DNA of 41,434 nt from Bacteroidota bacterium (GTDB taxonomy: Bacteria > Bacteroidota > Bacteroidia > Bacteroidales > JADFUO01). The stretch spans positions 1 through 41,434 of the forward strand of contig JAUXFX010000005.1 of assembly GCA_030622635.1 (NCBI GenBank). Direction: 5' to 3'. Under the pieces are notes generated by a model. It did not search any database. It was not told the DNA's origin and saw only the letters and a program-made list of their open reading frames with translations. Shown here piece after piece: positions 35,939 through 41,311 of the stretch. Position 1 is the first letter of the stretch. Each line of letters begins with the position of its first letter. The translations under genes were made by a program, and so were the position numbers.

Positions 35939-36202
35939 GATATCTTATGTTTTATTATATGAGGTTCGTGTTTTTTTGTAAAAATAAAAAAAATAAAGAA
36001 CGAACAATTAATTTTTTGAATAATTTTCAATATGATACTACAAATTCAGTTTATTATGCTGCCACTTGCGGTTTTTTATTATAAATAAGTGTTTATTATA
36101 CGGATTACGTTTTTTCTTGTTTATTTGAAATATTATACGTATAATCGCTGCTTAATAATGTGTTAGGTGCTAAGAGAAGTAATAACAAATGGATCGTCAG
36201 TT
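35939..36202. other. Divergent gap before the Cys/TPR gene
   Basis: It includes a 63-bp leader module (36103-36165), a 14-bp palindrome within it, and GTTAGGT (36162-36168), a perfect match to the integron core site GTTRRRY 34 bp before ATG 36203. No coding frame was seen. Confidence 0.5.
36103..36165 (+). repeat. 63-bp leader module, copy 1
   Basis: By eye it aligns without gaps to 38908-38970 at about 48 of 63 positions. Shared blocks include TTTTTTCTTG, TATTATAC and GCTTAATAAT. It stands 37 bp before the Cys/TPR gene, and the second copy is 15 bp before the RRM gene. Confidence 0.65.
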
Positions 36203-37135
36203 ATGAAAAAGGAGAAGTGTATTATTTGTTTAAATGCTAAAGGAAAACGGGTTTGTAAGATTAATGATAACTCATTAATTTGTTCTATCTGTTGTGCAAA
36301 GATTAGAACGTCCAATTGTGACGGTTGTTTTCATTACACTCAAGCAGAAAAATACGCAAAAGAAAAATCAGTGAAACAAAAATCTGAAAAATTTATAATG
36401 GCTATTGATCCTGAAATAAATGATAAAGTGGATCAAGCATTGGCAATGGCTGAAAAAGGAAATATACAATTGGGAGAAAGTATCATCTCTGCATTGCTTA
36501 ATGAGCACTACCATATTGATATGGTCCAATATGGAATGGGTGTAGTATGTTTAATGAAAAAACAATATGGTAAAGCTATTACATATTTTGATAAAGCAAT
36601 TAAGATAAACCCATATTTTGTTGAAGCCTGGTTTAATAAAGGTGCTGCTCATCAGAAAAGATTGGAATTAGGTGATACAATCAAAGCCTATCAAAAAGTG
36701 ATCGAATTTGGAGACTCGTCAGAACATTTTGTAAATCATGCAAAGGGTTTTATTAGAGACTTAGAAAAACAAATAAGAAAGAGTAGTGGTTTGAGTATGA
36801 ATGATTATTTAAAGTCGATGGATATGTTTAATGATGCTTTTGCAGCAATGGAGAGAATGGAATGGGAAAAAGCGTTATCAGGTTTCAAAAAAGTTTTATC
36901 AATGGATACACAACATACACAATCTTATGGTAATATGGGTATTTGTTATTGTCAATTAGGTAAGAAACAGGAAGCACTCGCAGCCCTTGAAAAATCTTTA
37001 GAGTTAGATCCTAAATACGAACCTGCTATAATAAATCTAAAGGTTATTTCTTCCCTTGCAGATGGTGAAAGACTACCGTTTGCTAAATTTAAGTCTGTTG
37101 ACTATTATAAAGATATTACTACAGAGAAGAAATAA
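36203..37135 (+). CDS. Cys-rich zinc-binding/TPR protein, possible cassette gene
   Basis: ATG 36203 gives 310 residues; GTG 36167 overlaps the putative core site and is less likely. The N-terminus carries closely spaced cysteines (KCIICLNAKGKRVC, CSICCAKI, CDGCFHY; about 5-50), a probable zinc-ribbon or treble-clef-like module. Then come TPRs (about 75-300: YGKAITYFDKAIKINPYFVE, QALAMAEKGN, GNMGICYCQLGKKQEALAAL). No signal peptide is seen, so the protein is likely cytoplasmic. TPRs bind proteins, and the metal module may bind nucleic acid or protein. It lies between a perfect GTTRRRY core site (36162) and an attC-like structure (37236-37368), which is how an integron gene cassette would look. 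Confidence 0.78.
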   Translation: MKKEKCIICLNAKGKRVCKINDNSLICSICCAKIRTSNCDGCFHYTQAEKYAKEKSVKQKSEKFIMAIDPEINDKVDQALAMAEKGNIQLGESIISALLNEHYHIDMVQYGMGVVCLMKKQYGKAITYFDKAIKINPYFVEAWFNKGAAHQKRLELGDTIKAYQKVIEFGDSSEHFVNHAKGFIRDLEKQIRKSSGLSMNDYLKSMDMFNDAFAAMERMEWEKALSGFKKVLSMDTQHTQSYGNMGICYCQLGKKQEALAALEKSLELDPKYEPAIINLKVISSLADGERLPFAKFKSVDYYKDITTEKK

Positions 37136-37235
37136 TTAATTAGTAATATTTTTAGATGATTTTGAATTCAAGAGAGAGAGAGAGATAAGTATTTAATATA
37201 GTATGCTAATTAAATTATAATTAGAAAGTTATCGC

Positions 37236-37368
37236 GACTAACAAGTGGCTTAAGCTGACTCGAAGGTCTCTGTGCAAATTAAGATGTTCAGAGCATCGCA
37301 TCAGTTATTATAAATTCCAAACGTTCTGTGCGCCGCAACCTTCGGGCAGCTTAGCCACAGCGTTAAAA
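37236..37368 (+). repeat. attC-like recombination site (integron cassette end), site A
   Basis: The left end is CTAAC (37238-37242) and the right end GTTA (37362-37365), matching R''/R' positions. Next to them the arms TGGCTTAAGCTG (37246-37257) and CAGCTTAGCCA (37347-37357) pair except for one extra T in the left arm. A further CGAAGG/CCTTCG pairing follows. An unpaired spacer between R and L boxes and a single extrahelical base in the left arm are the architecture of attC sites, where the integrase reads the folded strand. The R boxes match consensus imperfectly (GACTAAC, GTTAAAA). Orientation fits a cassette carrying the upstream plus-strand Cys/TPR gene. Confidence 0.5.
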
Positions 37369-37469
37369 CCCTCAATTGAGCAATACTATTGAGTGAAGTG
37401 GTATCTCATATAGAATTCATTTTTGGGAACCATCCCTGGCAACATTTTTTTGAAAATATGTAGTAAGAA

Positions 37470-37484: not shown

Positions 37485-38669
37485 ATGGATATATCTACGA
37501 ACTATTTAGGCAAACATTTTGAGAATCCGTTTATTCTAGCCTCTGCTCCCCCAACAGCTAATGCGGAGATGATTAAAAGGGCTTTTGAGGCTGGCTGGGC
37601 AGGGGCAGTGATAAAAACTTTGATTCAAGAGCCTGTAAAAAACCTGCAAAACCGGTTTGCAACATATAAAATGGGTAAAAAAATTATTGGATTCGAAAAT
37701 ATTGAGTTATTGAGTGAATTAACCCCTGAAGAATGGTATAAGGATATTCAAAAGCTTAAAAAAGATTTTCCTCATAAAATAGTGGTGGGCAGTATTATGG
37801 GGGACGCAAAAAATAAAAATCAATGGGTTGAAATGGCTTTGGGTTGTCAGGATGCAGGAGTAGATTTTTTAGAGCTAAATTTTTCATGCCCCCACGGATA
37901 TCCAGCTAAAGGAAAAGGGGCTGCCATTGGTCAAGACCCTGAATATTCCGCTATGATTACCCTGTGGTTAAAAGAGGATAGCCGAATTAAAGTACCCATT
38001 ATCCCTAAAATGACTCCAGCCATTACCAATATTTCATCTATTGGCGAAGCTGTGGCAAACGCCGGGGCTGACGGCATTTGTGCTGTTAACACTTTTCCCG
38101 TTATAATGGGGTTCAATTTAAGAACCCTTAAACCAAAACCTGATGTTGGAGGTTATACCACTGCAGGAGGCATGTCTGGTGCAAGTTTAAAACCTGTTGC
38201 TTTGCGATGCGTAAATGATTTAGTGGAAAATCCCGGTTTGCCGGTAATGGCTTGTGGCGGGATTTCTTCAGGTTTTGATGCTGTTGAATTTATGTTACTT
38301 GGAGCTCCTGTGGTTCAGGTTTGCACCGAAGTTATGTTAAAAGGTTATTCTATTATATCCAAAATGAAAAAAGAGGTTTCCCGATTTATGGAGTGGCATG
38401 GATACTCGAGTATTAAAGAGTTCATCGGGTTAGGTACTGGTTTGACAACTCAATATTCAGAGTTAGATCAAGATTTCAAGGTAACTCCTTCTGTTGATCC
38501 TGTGAAGTGCAATGGTTGTCAGGTCTGTTTTGTTTCTTGTAGGGACGGAGGGTATCAGGCTATAAAGATGAAAGAGCATTTAGCTGTAATCATCGAAGAC
38601 AGATGTAGCGGATGCTCTCTTTGTTTTCAGGTTTGCCCCCAAGATGCAATTCAAATGGTAGAAAATTAG
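37485..38669 (+). CDS. preA: Dihydropyrimidine dehydrogenase subunit PreA-like (FMN domain plus 2[4Fe-4S])
   Basis: The 394-residue protein has a dihydroorotate-dehydrogenase-like TIM barrel (1-330). The motifs are NPFILASAPPTANAEMI, LNFSCPHG with catalytic Cys135, VPIIPKMTP, GGYTTAGGMSG and ACGGISSG. A ferredoxin domain follows (about 335-394: CNGCQVCFVSC and CSGCSLCFQVCP) for two 4Fe-4S clusters. PreA with PreT (flavin, NADH side) reduces uracil and thymine to dihydropyrimidines, or runs in reverse. No preT and no other pyrimidine-catabolism gene lies nearby, so electrons must come from a distant partner or the substrate differs. It is complete, with a strong ribosome site, inside the accessory stretch between the two attC-like sites. 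Confidence 0.88.
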   Translation: MDISTNYLGKHFENPFILASAPPTANAEMIKRAFEAGWAGAVIKTLIQEPVKNLQNRFATYKMGKKIIGFENIELLSELTPEEWYKDIQKLKKDFPHKIVVGSIMGDAKNKNQWVEMALGCQDAGVDFLELNFSCPHGYPAKGKGAAIGQDPEYSAMITLWLKEDSRIKVPIIPKMTPAITNISSIGEAVANAGADGICAVNTFPVIMGFNLRTLKPKPDVGGYTTAGGMSGASLKPVALRCVNDLVENPGLPVMACGGISSGFDAVEFMLLGAPVVQVCTEVMLKGYSIISKMKKEVSRFMEWHGYSSIKEFIGLGTGLTTQYSELDQDFKVTPSVDPVKCNGCQVCFVSCRDGGYQAIKMKEHLAVIIEDRCSGCSLCFQVCPQDAIQMVEN

Positions 38670-38676
38670 ATTTAAT

Positions 38677-38757
38677 ATGGAAATTGTTCGTGCTATTCAA
38701 CAAAAAATTGATGTTAACCTTTATAGATTGGCAAACCTTTTATTTATTCTCAAGTAA
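38677..38757 (+). CDS. Very short open frame, doubtful
   Basis: From ATG 38677, 26 codons (MEIVRAIQQKIDVNLYRLAN and six more) run to TAA at 38755-38757, 7 bp after the preA-like stop. The helical composition could be part of a lost gene or chance. No ribosome site is seen, and I do not recognise it. Confidence 0.2.
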   Translation: MEIVRAIQQKIDVNLYRLANLLFILK

Positions 38758-38899
38758 AAACCTCCACGCTCAACACCATTCTTCAGGATGTTTGTTTGGT
38801 GGGAAGCCGATACATTCGGTTTTTATTATGGGGACTATTGATTCGGTGAAAGTCGTGTATTCAACCAGTCCAACAGGATTTGCACGGATTATCAATCCG
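38756..38899 (-). pseudogene. Decayed 3'-end copy of the DUF6125-like Cys-rich gene at 39499-40257
   Basis: On the minus strand about 144 bp match the end of the intact gene (39525-39680) at roughly four of five bases. Recognisable residues include LVEYTTF, ESI, IKTECIG, NKHPEEW and AWRF. A one-base insertion breaks the frame after YPCKS (YPCKSC here). TGA replaces TGT, so WYCAW becomes WC-stop-AW, and the second Cys of CIGC is Phe. The rest of the gene is absent. It is a remnant of a duplication or of a second allele. Confidence 0.85.
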
Positions 38900-38907
38900 C
38901 GTCAACT

Positions 38908-38970
38908 AATTACATTTTTTCTTGCATATTACGTATATTATACAGATATTTGCAGCTTAATAATTTATTA
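38908..38970 (+). repeat. 63-bp leader module, copy 2
   Basis: It aligns ungapped to 36103-36165 with about 15 differences. It ends 15 bp before the RRM start codon, so it may act as the promoter and leader of that gene. The last bases (TTATTA) correspond to TGTGTTA of copy 1, where the core site begins. Confidence 0.65.
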
Positions 38971-38985
38971 CAAAAAAAAATTAGA

Positions 38986-39276
38986 ATGAATATCTATGTA
39001 GGAAATTTGTCGTACGAGGCCACCGAAGAGGACGTACGACTGGCTTTCGAGCCATTCGGCCAAGTTGAGTCTGCTATTATTATAAAAGACAAGTATAGTG
39101 GTCGATCAAAAGGTTTTGGATTCGTGGAGATGCCCTCTAAAGATGAAGCGCAATCTGCAATTGATGGGCTCAATGACACAGAGTTAAAAGGAAAAGCTCT
39201 TAACGTGAATGAGGCTCGTCCTCGCACCGAAAATCGCGGTGGTAGAGGAGGACGAGGGGGTGGCCGTCGTTTCTAG
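38986..39276 (+). CDS. RRM-domain RNA-binding protein with Gly/Arg-rich tail
   Basis: The 96-residue protein starts at ATG 38986; a TTG at 38950 falls inside the leader module. It has a single RNA recognition motif with RNP2 IYVGNL (3-8) and RNP1 KGFGFVEM (42-49). The C-terminal RGG-type tail is RTENRGGRGGRGGGRRF (80-96). Such small Rbp proteins of cyanobacteria and Bacteroidota bind single-stranded RNA and are often cold induced. The coding sequence is visibly richer in G and C than neighbouring genes. It is followed 42 bp later by an attC-like site in the same orientation. Confidence 0.93.
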   Translation: MNIYVGNLSYEATEEDVRLAFEPFGQVESAIIIKDKYSGRSKGFGFVEMPSKDEAQSAIDGLNDTELKGKALNVNEARPRTENRGGRGGRGGGRRF

Positions 39277-39318
39277 TCATCGGGATACAACATATAGAAT
39301 ACAATCATATAACATTTC

Positions 39319-39390
39319 GCTTAACAAACCGCTCAATACCGACCTGAAAAAGCTCAACGCCTTTTCAGGCGGCTTTGCTTTTCGTTAAGG
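39319..39390 (+). repeat. attC-like recombination site, site B
   Basis: A 72-bp imperfect hairpin starts with GCTTAAC (39319-39325, perfect RYYYAAC) and ends GTTAAGG (39384-39390, six of seven to GTTRRRY). Inside, GCTCAA pairs loosely with TTTGC. Then CCGACCTGAAAA pairs with TTTTCAGGCGG except for one extrahelical A. The order TAAC, spacer, GCTCAA..CCGAC resembles short attC sites such as that of aadA7. It sits behind the RRM gene in the sense expected of a cassette. A simple terminator-like hairpin is the main alternative, but it would not predict the outer TTAAC/GTTAA pair. Confidence 0.55.
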
Positions 39391-39493
39391 TTTTGTTCCA
39401 CAATATATTGATGCAATTCCAAATGTTTGGGATATGAATCTTGAATTTATAAATCCGGCTTTAGATAAAACGTTAATAAAATTATTTCCATAA
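39389..39493 (+). pseudogene. C-terminal gene remnant directly after attC-like site B
   Basis: A 34-codon frame (GFVPQYIDAIPNVWDMNLEF, then INPALDKTLIKLFP) runs to TAA 39491-39493 with no start codon of its own. The previous in-frame codon is a stop inside the GTTAAGG box. Composition and codon use look coding, and it ends 5 bp before the convergent DUF6125-like gene. It may be the last part of a gene whose front was displaced by insertion at the core site. The protein family is not recognised. Confidence 0.45.
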
Positions 39494-39498
39494 TGATT

Positions 39499-40257
39499 TT
39501 AATCTGTTTGTTTTTCCTGTAAATAAAACCTCCACGCACAATACCATTCATCAGGATGTTTGTCAGGCGGGCAGCCTATACATTCGGTTTTTATCCTTGA
39601 GTCTATTGATTCGGCGAAAGTCGTGTATTCAACCAAACCACCTGATTTGCATGGATAATCATCTAATCCTTTTCGTTTCCGGGCACTTTGAACGCGGCAG
39701 TCATTCATCTGAAAAACAAAACTGTTCGGGGTTTCTTCTGTTATTGATTGTTTGTTTACTGTGGCATACAAACGAAAATTCAATGCTTTTTTTAATCCTT
39801 CCAGTCCAGGGTTTTCAGGCAAGTTTAAAAAGCGTTTTATTGACCATGCTTCAAAAGGAGAAAATTGTCCCCAGCAAGTGTCATTACACCTTTTTGCATC
39901 AAACATGCTTCTCGAAAACTCAACTGCCTGAAACCAGACTCCATCATTTGCCAGCCAGTTTACAGCTACTTTTTCTTTTAACTCATGAAGTTTTTCTTTC
40001 GGAATATCAAGCAATGGTTTCGGAATATCATCTTCCATTTCAAAACCAAGGGTTTTCGACAATCTTTTCATCTGGATATGATAACTTTTTGAATAAGCTT
40101 CCTTGAGTATTTTTTGTGCTTTTTCGCGTCCAAACTGATGTTGCACTTCGGCATACCAAAAAGCATGATGCATCATAGTACGATGAAAAAAATCAATTAT
40201 TAACCTCGCAGTTTCTTTATGATCCAAGTCTTCCTGTGATTTCAAAATTCTTTCCAT
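39499..40257 (-). CDS. Cys-rich cytoplasmic protein, DUF6125-like
   Basis: ATG 40257 gives 252 residues (MERILKSQEDL...); a TTG at 40296 adds thirteen. The N-terminal helical part contains DFFHRTMMHHAFWYAEVQHQ (about 22-41), and SYHIQMKRLSKTLGFE follows. The C-terminal part is rich in Cys and Trp: DAKRCNDTCWGQFSPFEAWS, NDCRVQSARKRKGLDDYPC and KTECIGCPPD, with WYCAW. Spacing of Cys (CIGCP, NDC, YPC) suggests metal or cluster binding. From memory it resembles DUF6125 proteins of anaerobes and, more distantly, thiazoline-carboxylate hydrolase-like proteins; neither is proven. A decayed copy of its 3' end is at 38756-38899. Confidence 0.75.
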   Translation of the reverse strand: MERILKSQEDLDHKETARLIIDFFHRTMMHHAFWYAEVQHQFGREKAQKILKEAYSKSYHIQMKRLSKTLGFEMEDDIPKPLLDIPKEKLHELKEKVAVNWLANDGVWFQAVEFSRSMFDAKRCNDTCWGQFSPFEAWSIKRFLNLPENPGLEGLKKALNFRLYATVNKQSITEETPNSFVFQMNDCRVQSARKRKGLDDYPCKSGGLVEYTTFAESIDSRIKTECIGCPPDKHPDEWYCAWRFYLQEKQTD

Positions 40258-40303
40258 ATTTAAATATATTATGTTTTTAAAAATTAATGAGTCCAATCAA
40301 AAA

Positions 40304-40429: not shown

Positions 40430-41275
40430 TTAATTAAATATTTTTGATGCCATTTTTACAGCAGCATCAAATACATTTTTATCAATTTTATATTTAATAT
40501 TACTTTTATCAAAATAATACAGTAAATTTTTTGTGTCCATATTACCAATCAGTTTATCATCAGCCATGGGGCAGCCGCCCAAGCCATTGATAACCGTATC
40601 AAATCTTCTGCAACCGGCTTTATAGGCAGCATCTGTTTTTTCATACCAATCATTGGGTTTGGCATGCAAATGTAACCCAAATTCCACATCAGGAAATTTA
40701 GGAATTACCGTTGAAAATACAGCTTTTATTCTTTCCGCAGTTGAATTTCCAAGTATATCTGAAAAAGGAATAATTTGTATCCCAAGCCTGTAAAGTACAT
40801 CAACCCATTTCTCAACTAACTCAATATTCCACTTATCTTCATAAGGATTTCCAAAACCCATTGCTATATAAACTACAAGTTCCTTTTTTGCTTTAATACA
40901 AATATTTTTTAAAACTTCAATGGTTTGCAACGAACTTTTAATATCAGAATTAATATTTCTTTTTAGAAATGTTGGAGAAACCGAAAATGGAAAAATAAGG
41001 TATTTTATTTCATCAAAACCGGCAGCAATTTCACCTCCTTTTTTGTTTGCAACCAAAACCATTAATTTGGATTTGGTTTCTGACATATCCAATTTTTTCA
41101 AAACTTCTGCTGTATCGCTTAGCTGCGGAATTGCATCAGGTGAAACAAAACTCCCGACATCAACAGTATCAAAACCAACTTTTAATAATAAATTAATATA
41201 ATCTGCCTTTGTCTGCGTTGGGATAAATTTTTTTAGTCCCTGCATTCCATCACGGGGAGTTTCGATTATTTTCAT
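40430..41275 (-). CDS. Hydroxymethylglutaryl-CoA lyase family enzyme (HMGL-like)
   Basis: ATG 41275 gives 281 residues (MKIIETPRDGMQGLKKFIP). It has a TIM barrel of the DRE-metallolyase group: ETPRDGMQG with catalytic Arg and Asp, GFDTVDVGSFVSP, PFSDILGNS, LHLHAKPND with metal-binding histidines, and the lyase loop NGLGGCPMADD carrying the catalytic Cys. The GGCP loop favours HMG-CoA lyase (HMG-CoA to acetyl-CoA and acetoacetate) over synthases. The length fits. It starts 36 bp after a related gene that enters from the right edge, suggesting an operon for leucine or acyl-CoA degradation. Confidence 0.88.
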   Translation of the reverse strand: MKIIETPRDGMQGLKKFIPTQTKADYINLLLKVGFDTVDVGSFVSPDAIPQLSDTAEVLKKLDMSETKSKLMVLVANKKGGEIAAGFDEIKYLIFPFSVSPTFLKRNINSDIKSSLQTIEVLKNICIKAKKELVVYIAMGFGNPYEDKWNIELVEKWVDVLYRLGIQIIPFSDILGNSTAERIKAVFSTVIPKFPDVEFGLHLHAKPNDWYEKTDAAYKAGCRRFDTVINGLGGCPMADDKLIGNMDTKNLLYYFDKSNIKYKIDKNVFDAAVKMASKIFN

Positions 41276-41311
41276 CAATTTTCTCTATTTCTACTGGAAA
41301 ACGAATAGTGA

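Follow-up and report, generated by a model that had tools for sequence, protein, structure and literature searches.

A decayed copy of a DUF6125 3' end beside a cassette-like unit and an attI-like element in a Bacteroidales genome

Results

Gene content at the locus

The window, the whole stretch of 41,434 nucleotides analysed here, lies on contig JAUXFX010000005.1 of a Bacteroidales genome (assembly GCA_030622635.1; below, G000). Its right end carries, on the minus strand, the end of an operon: an HMG-CoA-lyase-like gene (40430-41278), then an intact DUF6125 gene (39499-40257; 252 aa; PF19620, 237 bits). Further left the sequence is a mosaic. In the genus, and at the loci L132, L133 and L134, the lyase-like gene lies next to DUF6125 on its upstream side. 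Immediately after the DUF6125 gene comes a minus-strand remnant of a menG/ubiE 3' end (39388-39498), which is 97% identical to a counterpart that follows DUF6125 in G001 (L129 8812-9117) and lacks about 200 bases present there. The genome's own menG sits elsewhere (G000:C45). We rejected this gene, displaced, as the source of the tail because the two are just 65% identical, and the tail looks foreign.

On the left, the plus-strand preA-like dihydropyrimidine dehydrogenase gene (37485-38669) is followed by a 35-base segment, S (38708-38742). The 3' end of the preA-like gene also occurs on the DUF6125 contig of G003, where about 4 kb of other genes separate the two (G003:C286, L058 5034-9215) and G000 has only the elements described below. 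This G003 stretch holds several copies resembling the R element described below and an attC-like hairpin, of a kind that shuffled sequence gives as often. PreA was considered as the ancestral neighbour of DUF6125 and rejected, since in ten relatives from the order its best matches (at most 41%) lie on contigs other than that of DUF6125.

A broken copy of the DUF6125 3' end

Between S and the operon, near the intact gene and in the same orientation, the final fifth of the DUF6125 gene is present a second time as a dead copy (38743-38899, minus strand; codons ~205 to stop). A preliminary description of the window had proposed a broken partial duplicate at this place, with coordinates correct to a few bases, and pairwise alignment bears the proposal out. 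In the gapped local alignment, 117 of 138 columns between 38758-38895 (minus strand) and the intact 3' end are identical, with one gap, and the score of 169 compares with at most 38 across 200 shuffles of the fragment. The same relationship appears as a direct repeat (38739-38872 and 39507-39640; 82% over 134 ungapped bases) and in a blastn search of the region against its own genome (85% over 137 bases). Identity of 82-85% is not chance similarity.

The three lesions named in that description are all present in the alignment. One extra base near 38872-38880 shifts the frame, a TGT-to-TGA change (the complement of 38770-38772) puts a stop in place of a Cys codon, and a second Cys has become Phe (38803-38805). 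Frameshifted, interrupted and confined to the 3' end, the fragment is not an open full-length gene. A 41-residue piece of it (38770-38895) still reaches 30.3 bits in a profile search with PF19620, above the cut-off of 27. Across 39 codons, 10 non-synonymous differences (stop included) and 5 synonymous ones separate it from the intact gene, a pattern as in a decaying copy. Judged from its sequence, 38743-38899 is a pseudogene with no likely function, and as such an ordinary kind of fossil. That the last part of the gene alone was copied or kept, as had been suggested, fits these data, as would a complete tandem copy whose 5' part disappeared afterwards.

A different DUF6125 family member was rejected as the source: the blastn search found no third copy in the window's own genome at E 0.001, and a protein search of that genome recovered the intact gene and the fragment only (the latter as codons 205-248 of 251, at 70%, with one TGA). 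An origin from a plasmid or virus was likewise set aside, as 38700-40300 has no match in plasmids and the DUF6125 protein no relative in viral contigs. A literature search on DUF6125 found no papers.

A cassette-like unit between fragment and gene

The unit that separates the fragment from the operon (38909-39387) consists of a 60-base leader, R (38909-38970, plus strand), an RRM RNA-binding protein gene (38986-39276, plus strand; 96 aa; PF00076; NF058537, 110.9 bits, cut-off 100) and an attC-like site, B (39319-39390, plus strand; 72 bases, GCTTAAC...GTTAAGG), directly left of the menG/ubiE remnant. It is found again beside the same gene in G002, at 97% over 479 bases, and site B forms the right end of the shared sequence. 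In this one genome pair, G000 and G002 diverge just after CG|TTA of site B, which is the attC cut. Left of R, the G002 contig runs on for 71 bases, of attI-type sequence, before it ends; the window has the fragment there.

Site B has the R''/R' boxes and the folded bottom strand of attC (z -3.85), although its last box base is not Y. A box-and-hairpin scan of 36-39.6 kb found this site alone, against 0 in 3 shuffles; in other arrays the scan returned about as many sites as in shuffles. It missed a second attC-like hairpin, A (37234-37369, plus strand; z -3.55), between a TPR gene and the preA-like gene, whose R' reads GTTAAAA. The ORF list has no integrase reading frame between 38909 and 39498, and an integron integrase had no match on the window's contig (C188) at E 0.001. 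One is encoded elsewhere in the genome (G000:C95; 314 bits with in-frame neighbours, cut-off 265). By its sequence, the stretch between fragment and intact gene looks like an exchangeable integron cassette.

Copies of the R element

R has a core, TTG-N20-TATTTGC, that we take to be a Bacteroidota-type promoter motif. The window holds a second copy (36030-36165, plus strand; also delimited as 36070-36165) whose attI-type upstream part is complete and which leads the TPR gene (36167-37135). In the fetched loci we found 31 distinct R sequences at E 0.01, 30 from G000-G003 and one in L133 (copies were located in L037-L056, L074-L093, L096-L107 and L269), and there are matches also in G100 and G332, members of other families. 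Columns were counted over 22 of the 31 sequences, leaving out one that could not be anchored and eight under 33 bits. From -18 to -2, 15 of 17 columns are conserved at 82% or more; G at -1 stands at 77%, the TTA that follows at 91-100%, and columns +3 to +39 at 29-68%. Two of the counted copies (L043 and L097) were anchored wrongly, which blurs these values.

Three copies of R lie on G332:C40 (L269; 51506-51558, 50091-50145 and 45722-45776), which encodes an integron integrase (TIGR02249, 381 bits, cut-off 265). Upstream of the integrase gene, at a distance of about 350 bases, one R points away from it. The top-scoring copy on this contig lies just past the 3' end of the same gene, which is thus flanked by two copies of R. 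At another, 4.4 kb further from the first, 299 bases of the intI-upstream region are repeated at 92%, with the same GTTATA end. The order of R, integrase 3' end and integrase upstream region recurs in G001:C95 (L096 11592-12402; 87-89%) with the integrase gene mostly deleted, and contig G003:C389, which has an integrase gene (408 bits, one TAA), is cut short next to it, within the sequence found upstream of R. Two results count against an attI reading of R: no R lies beside the integrase gene on the 3,725-base G000:C95, which ends about 210 bases upstream of intI, and no integrase exceeds the cut-off in G079 or G100, genomes that may be incomplete. Given its position beside intI in G332 and G003 and its conservation up to G|TTA, R looks like attI plus a promoter, copied to many places.

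At least one pair of copies is inherited in place, since R at G000:C222 and at G003:C191 has the same gene before it and the same sequence after it. At G001:C95 (the end of L096) and G001:C43 (L052), an R copy and a short flank are shared and the sequences differ just after GTTAT; the pair may represent two cassette states of one site, or an assembly fork. We read by eye the frames upstream of the 23 R copies scoring 30 bits or more, 3 of which have fewer than 100 bases upstream, and found a truncated gene tail at the window's R only. The idea that R generally has a gene tail beside it was rejected, because the other copies so read have no truncated tail reading away from them.

A second case in another family

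Among the best 80 of 104 loci from a scan of genome contigs for relatives, tblastn found a separate short DUF6125 piece in one, L133 (JAIORY010000425.1), from the Bacteroidales MAG SMBSF30 (G079), which is placed in another family. The order there is intact DUF6125 gene, a 330-aa gene, an R-like element and a 3' fragment. The gene in the gap (L133 8830-9822) has no Pfam match. R is weak (27.8 bits), and blastn with the window's R and junction did not recover it. The two fragments cover nearly the same part of the gene, codons 206-249 in the window and 202-249 in L133. The DUF6125 gene has a match in 64 of the 393 genomes searched in the order; two of these (G000 and SMBSF30) have a fragment, and none has a second full copy.

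In L133 the fragment has an uninterrupted frame of 47 codons and keeps its Cys residues. It is 90% identical to its own intact gene over the whole end and 92% over the body, which is sister to that gene in the tree (support 82), and it differs from the intact tail by 5 synonymous and 2 non-synonymous changes among 39 codons. Its C-terminal end, FFVEEE, is like the FYVEEE of the G002 gene, while that of the adjacent intact gene is short (FII). In the same tree, where the L132 outgroup sequence is misplaced inside, only a node of support 20 puts the window's fragment outside the four genes of the genus. For the intact genes, front part and tail do not conflict.

The fragment and R meet at 38895-38909, and L133 has a similar junction. 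Window and L133 share 17 of 22 bases of the flank between fragment and R, whereas the same flank at 28 other R copies gives at best 11/22 against the window and 10/22 against L133. About 6 of the 22 bases may be gene-derived; 12 of the other 16 are shared, counted by hand. Just before the junction both sequences seem to lack four gene bases (in L133 by eye). With a similar junction beside a different gap gene, the junction may predate the cassette now present. The earlier idea that a cassette insertion split an older arrangement stands in part. The intervening unit is cassette-like, by its near-identity to G002 and the attC cut, but the RRM cassette need not have caused the split, since the SMBSF30 junction has a different gene.

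The genus's three other genomes (G001, G002 and G003) have the gene and show no second DUF6125 match; the stretch is complete to preA in G003 only, and the contigs of G001 and G002 end before the far side. In G003, about 25 bases separate S from an R copy to its right, and the fragment is missing from that interval.

Discussion

Origin of the fragment

We favour, with a probability of about 0.45, an account in which the fragment is the 3' end of the DUF6125 gene, displaced and no longer alive, duplicated by an attI-led insertion at the end of the operon. A segment consisting of R and cassettes would have inserted there and left the last ~150 bases of DUF6125 on both sides. The working gene would have retained one copy of its 3' end, with the other left beyond R. 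The route could have been a circle that carried part of the gene and entered by a single crossover, or any target-duplicating insertion. The far copy would then have decayed in the window's lineage, and the cassettes in between would have been exchanged, so that the window now has the RRM gene and SMBSF30 the 330-aa gene. In SMBSF30, later gene conversion would have brought the fragment close in sequence to the intact gene beside it. We infer that insertion and duplication were a single event, old and common to both lineages by descent.

Arguing for this account, L133 repeats the order of parts seen in the window, and its flank beside R agrees with the window's better than does that of other R copies. 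The unit between fragment and gene recurs in G002 and ends there at the attC cut. The position of S, left of the fragment in the window and close to R in G003, looks as if G003 had deleted the fragment. The C-terminal end of the L133 fragment resembles the G002 gene rather than its intact neighbour. Counter to this, the sister relationship of the L133 fragment to its own gene implies two separate events unless gene conversion is invoked, and the poorly supported node makes any age for the window's fragment tentative. The R that precedes the RRM gene in G002 is adjoined, over the 71 bases remaining on that contig, by attI-type sequence and not by the fragment. Fragments occur in only 2 of the 64 genomes with the gene, the intact genes have no conflict between front and tail, and other R copies, by eye, lack truncated gene tails. 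The R of L133 is weak and escapes blastn, and the crossover step is not visible.

Alternatively, the gene or its end may have undergone ordinary tandem duplication. R and cassettes would then have replaced the 5' part of the second copy and that copy would have decayed, the native end never having been displaced. Direct orientation, close spacing and decay by mixed mutations are what this would leave, and it makes a special mechanism unnecessary. Such a duplication, if R invaded it afterwards, accounts for almost as much as the displaced-end reading. We regard it as somewhat less probable: none of the genomes with the gene has a second full copy, and fragments of two families cover a nearly identical stretch. 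Two independent insertions of R elements at the same place in DUF6125, one per lineage, at a specific site or a hot spot, would account for the closeness of the L133 fragment to its intact tail, since so few, mostly synonymous, differences make the two look recently parted, and for the more decayed state of the window's fragment. The common 22-base flank, absent from 28 other R copies, makes this unlikely.

The open frame and retained Cys residues in L133 raise the question of whether the fragment is still in use as a short protein or transcript end. With a frameshift, a stop and a lost Cys in the window, and no fragment found in the three sister genomes, such use is very improbable. An artefact merging two strains is least probable of all: the genome is in 279 contigs and several sister-genome contigs end at or near R copies, but the copies are 15-18% apart and a separate assembly, L133, has the same layout.

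The fragment helps to date events at this one locus, and makes it possible to ask whether cassettes had a place behind this catabolic operon before the present ones arrived. More broadly, the attI-plus-promoter may itself have spread in these Bacteroidales. Many copies of R with no integrase would then be docking and expression sites for cassettes around the chromosome, and the integrase gene itself would be cassette-like, held between two copies. R could also act as a homologous joint at which flanks, the DUF6125 tail among them, are duplicated, deleted or swapped, with at least one pair of copies inherited in place in sister species. We put this forward as a tentative reading that may well prove wrong. 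If R is indeed attI, one integrase could serve many expression-ready docking sites in trans, which would change how integrase-less cassette arrays in Bacteroidota are understood.

Comparison with known systems

Some prophages and islands, such as e14 in icd, have the 3' end of a gene as their integration site and carry a replacement for it. The window is like these elements in having an intact gene and a displaced 3' end on the far side; it differs in that its insert of ~600 bases has no integrase gene. The two ends are 85% identical at the window and 90% at L133, and a mechanism of the e14 type would be hypothetical.

Few complete integrons are recorded in Bacteroidota, and integrons typically have one attI, near the integrase (PMC9024848). 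Clusters of attC sites without a nearby intI define CALINs (PMC9668308, PMC12444791). The window resembles a CALIN in its cassette-like genes with attC-like site B and a possible second one, A, and in having an integrase only elsewhere in the genome; it is unlike one in that an attI-like copy of R leads its array. In Xanthomonas, arrays that lack an integrase are known at fixed places, and the chromosomal integron lies downstream of ilvD (PMC12444791, in the text of which the word 'fragment' does not appear). The window's array likewise follows a conserved gene, but it has no intI at the locus.

R is comparable to the delta-attI cassettes of class 1 and 2 integrons, which are also attI pieces away from an integrase. 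According to PMC12901181, these sit inside arrays and end at GTTRRRY; the commonest is 17 nt long and replaces attC at cassette ends, and the set includes a 244-nt piece and one complete attI1. Among the best literature matches listed, none dealt in its title or abstract with long attI copies that are dispersed, and the wide scatter of long attI-like copies had no counterpart in the literature searched. R differs from delta-attI pieces in its length (~60 bases or more, with 299 repeated in G332), in its promoter-like core and in leading genes at many loci.
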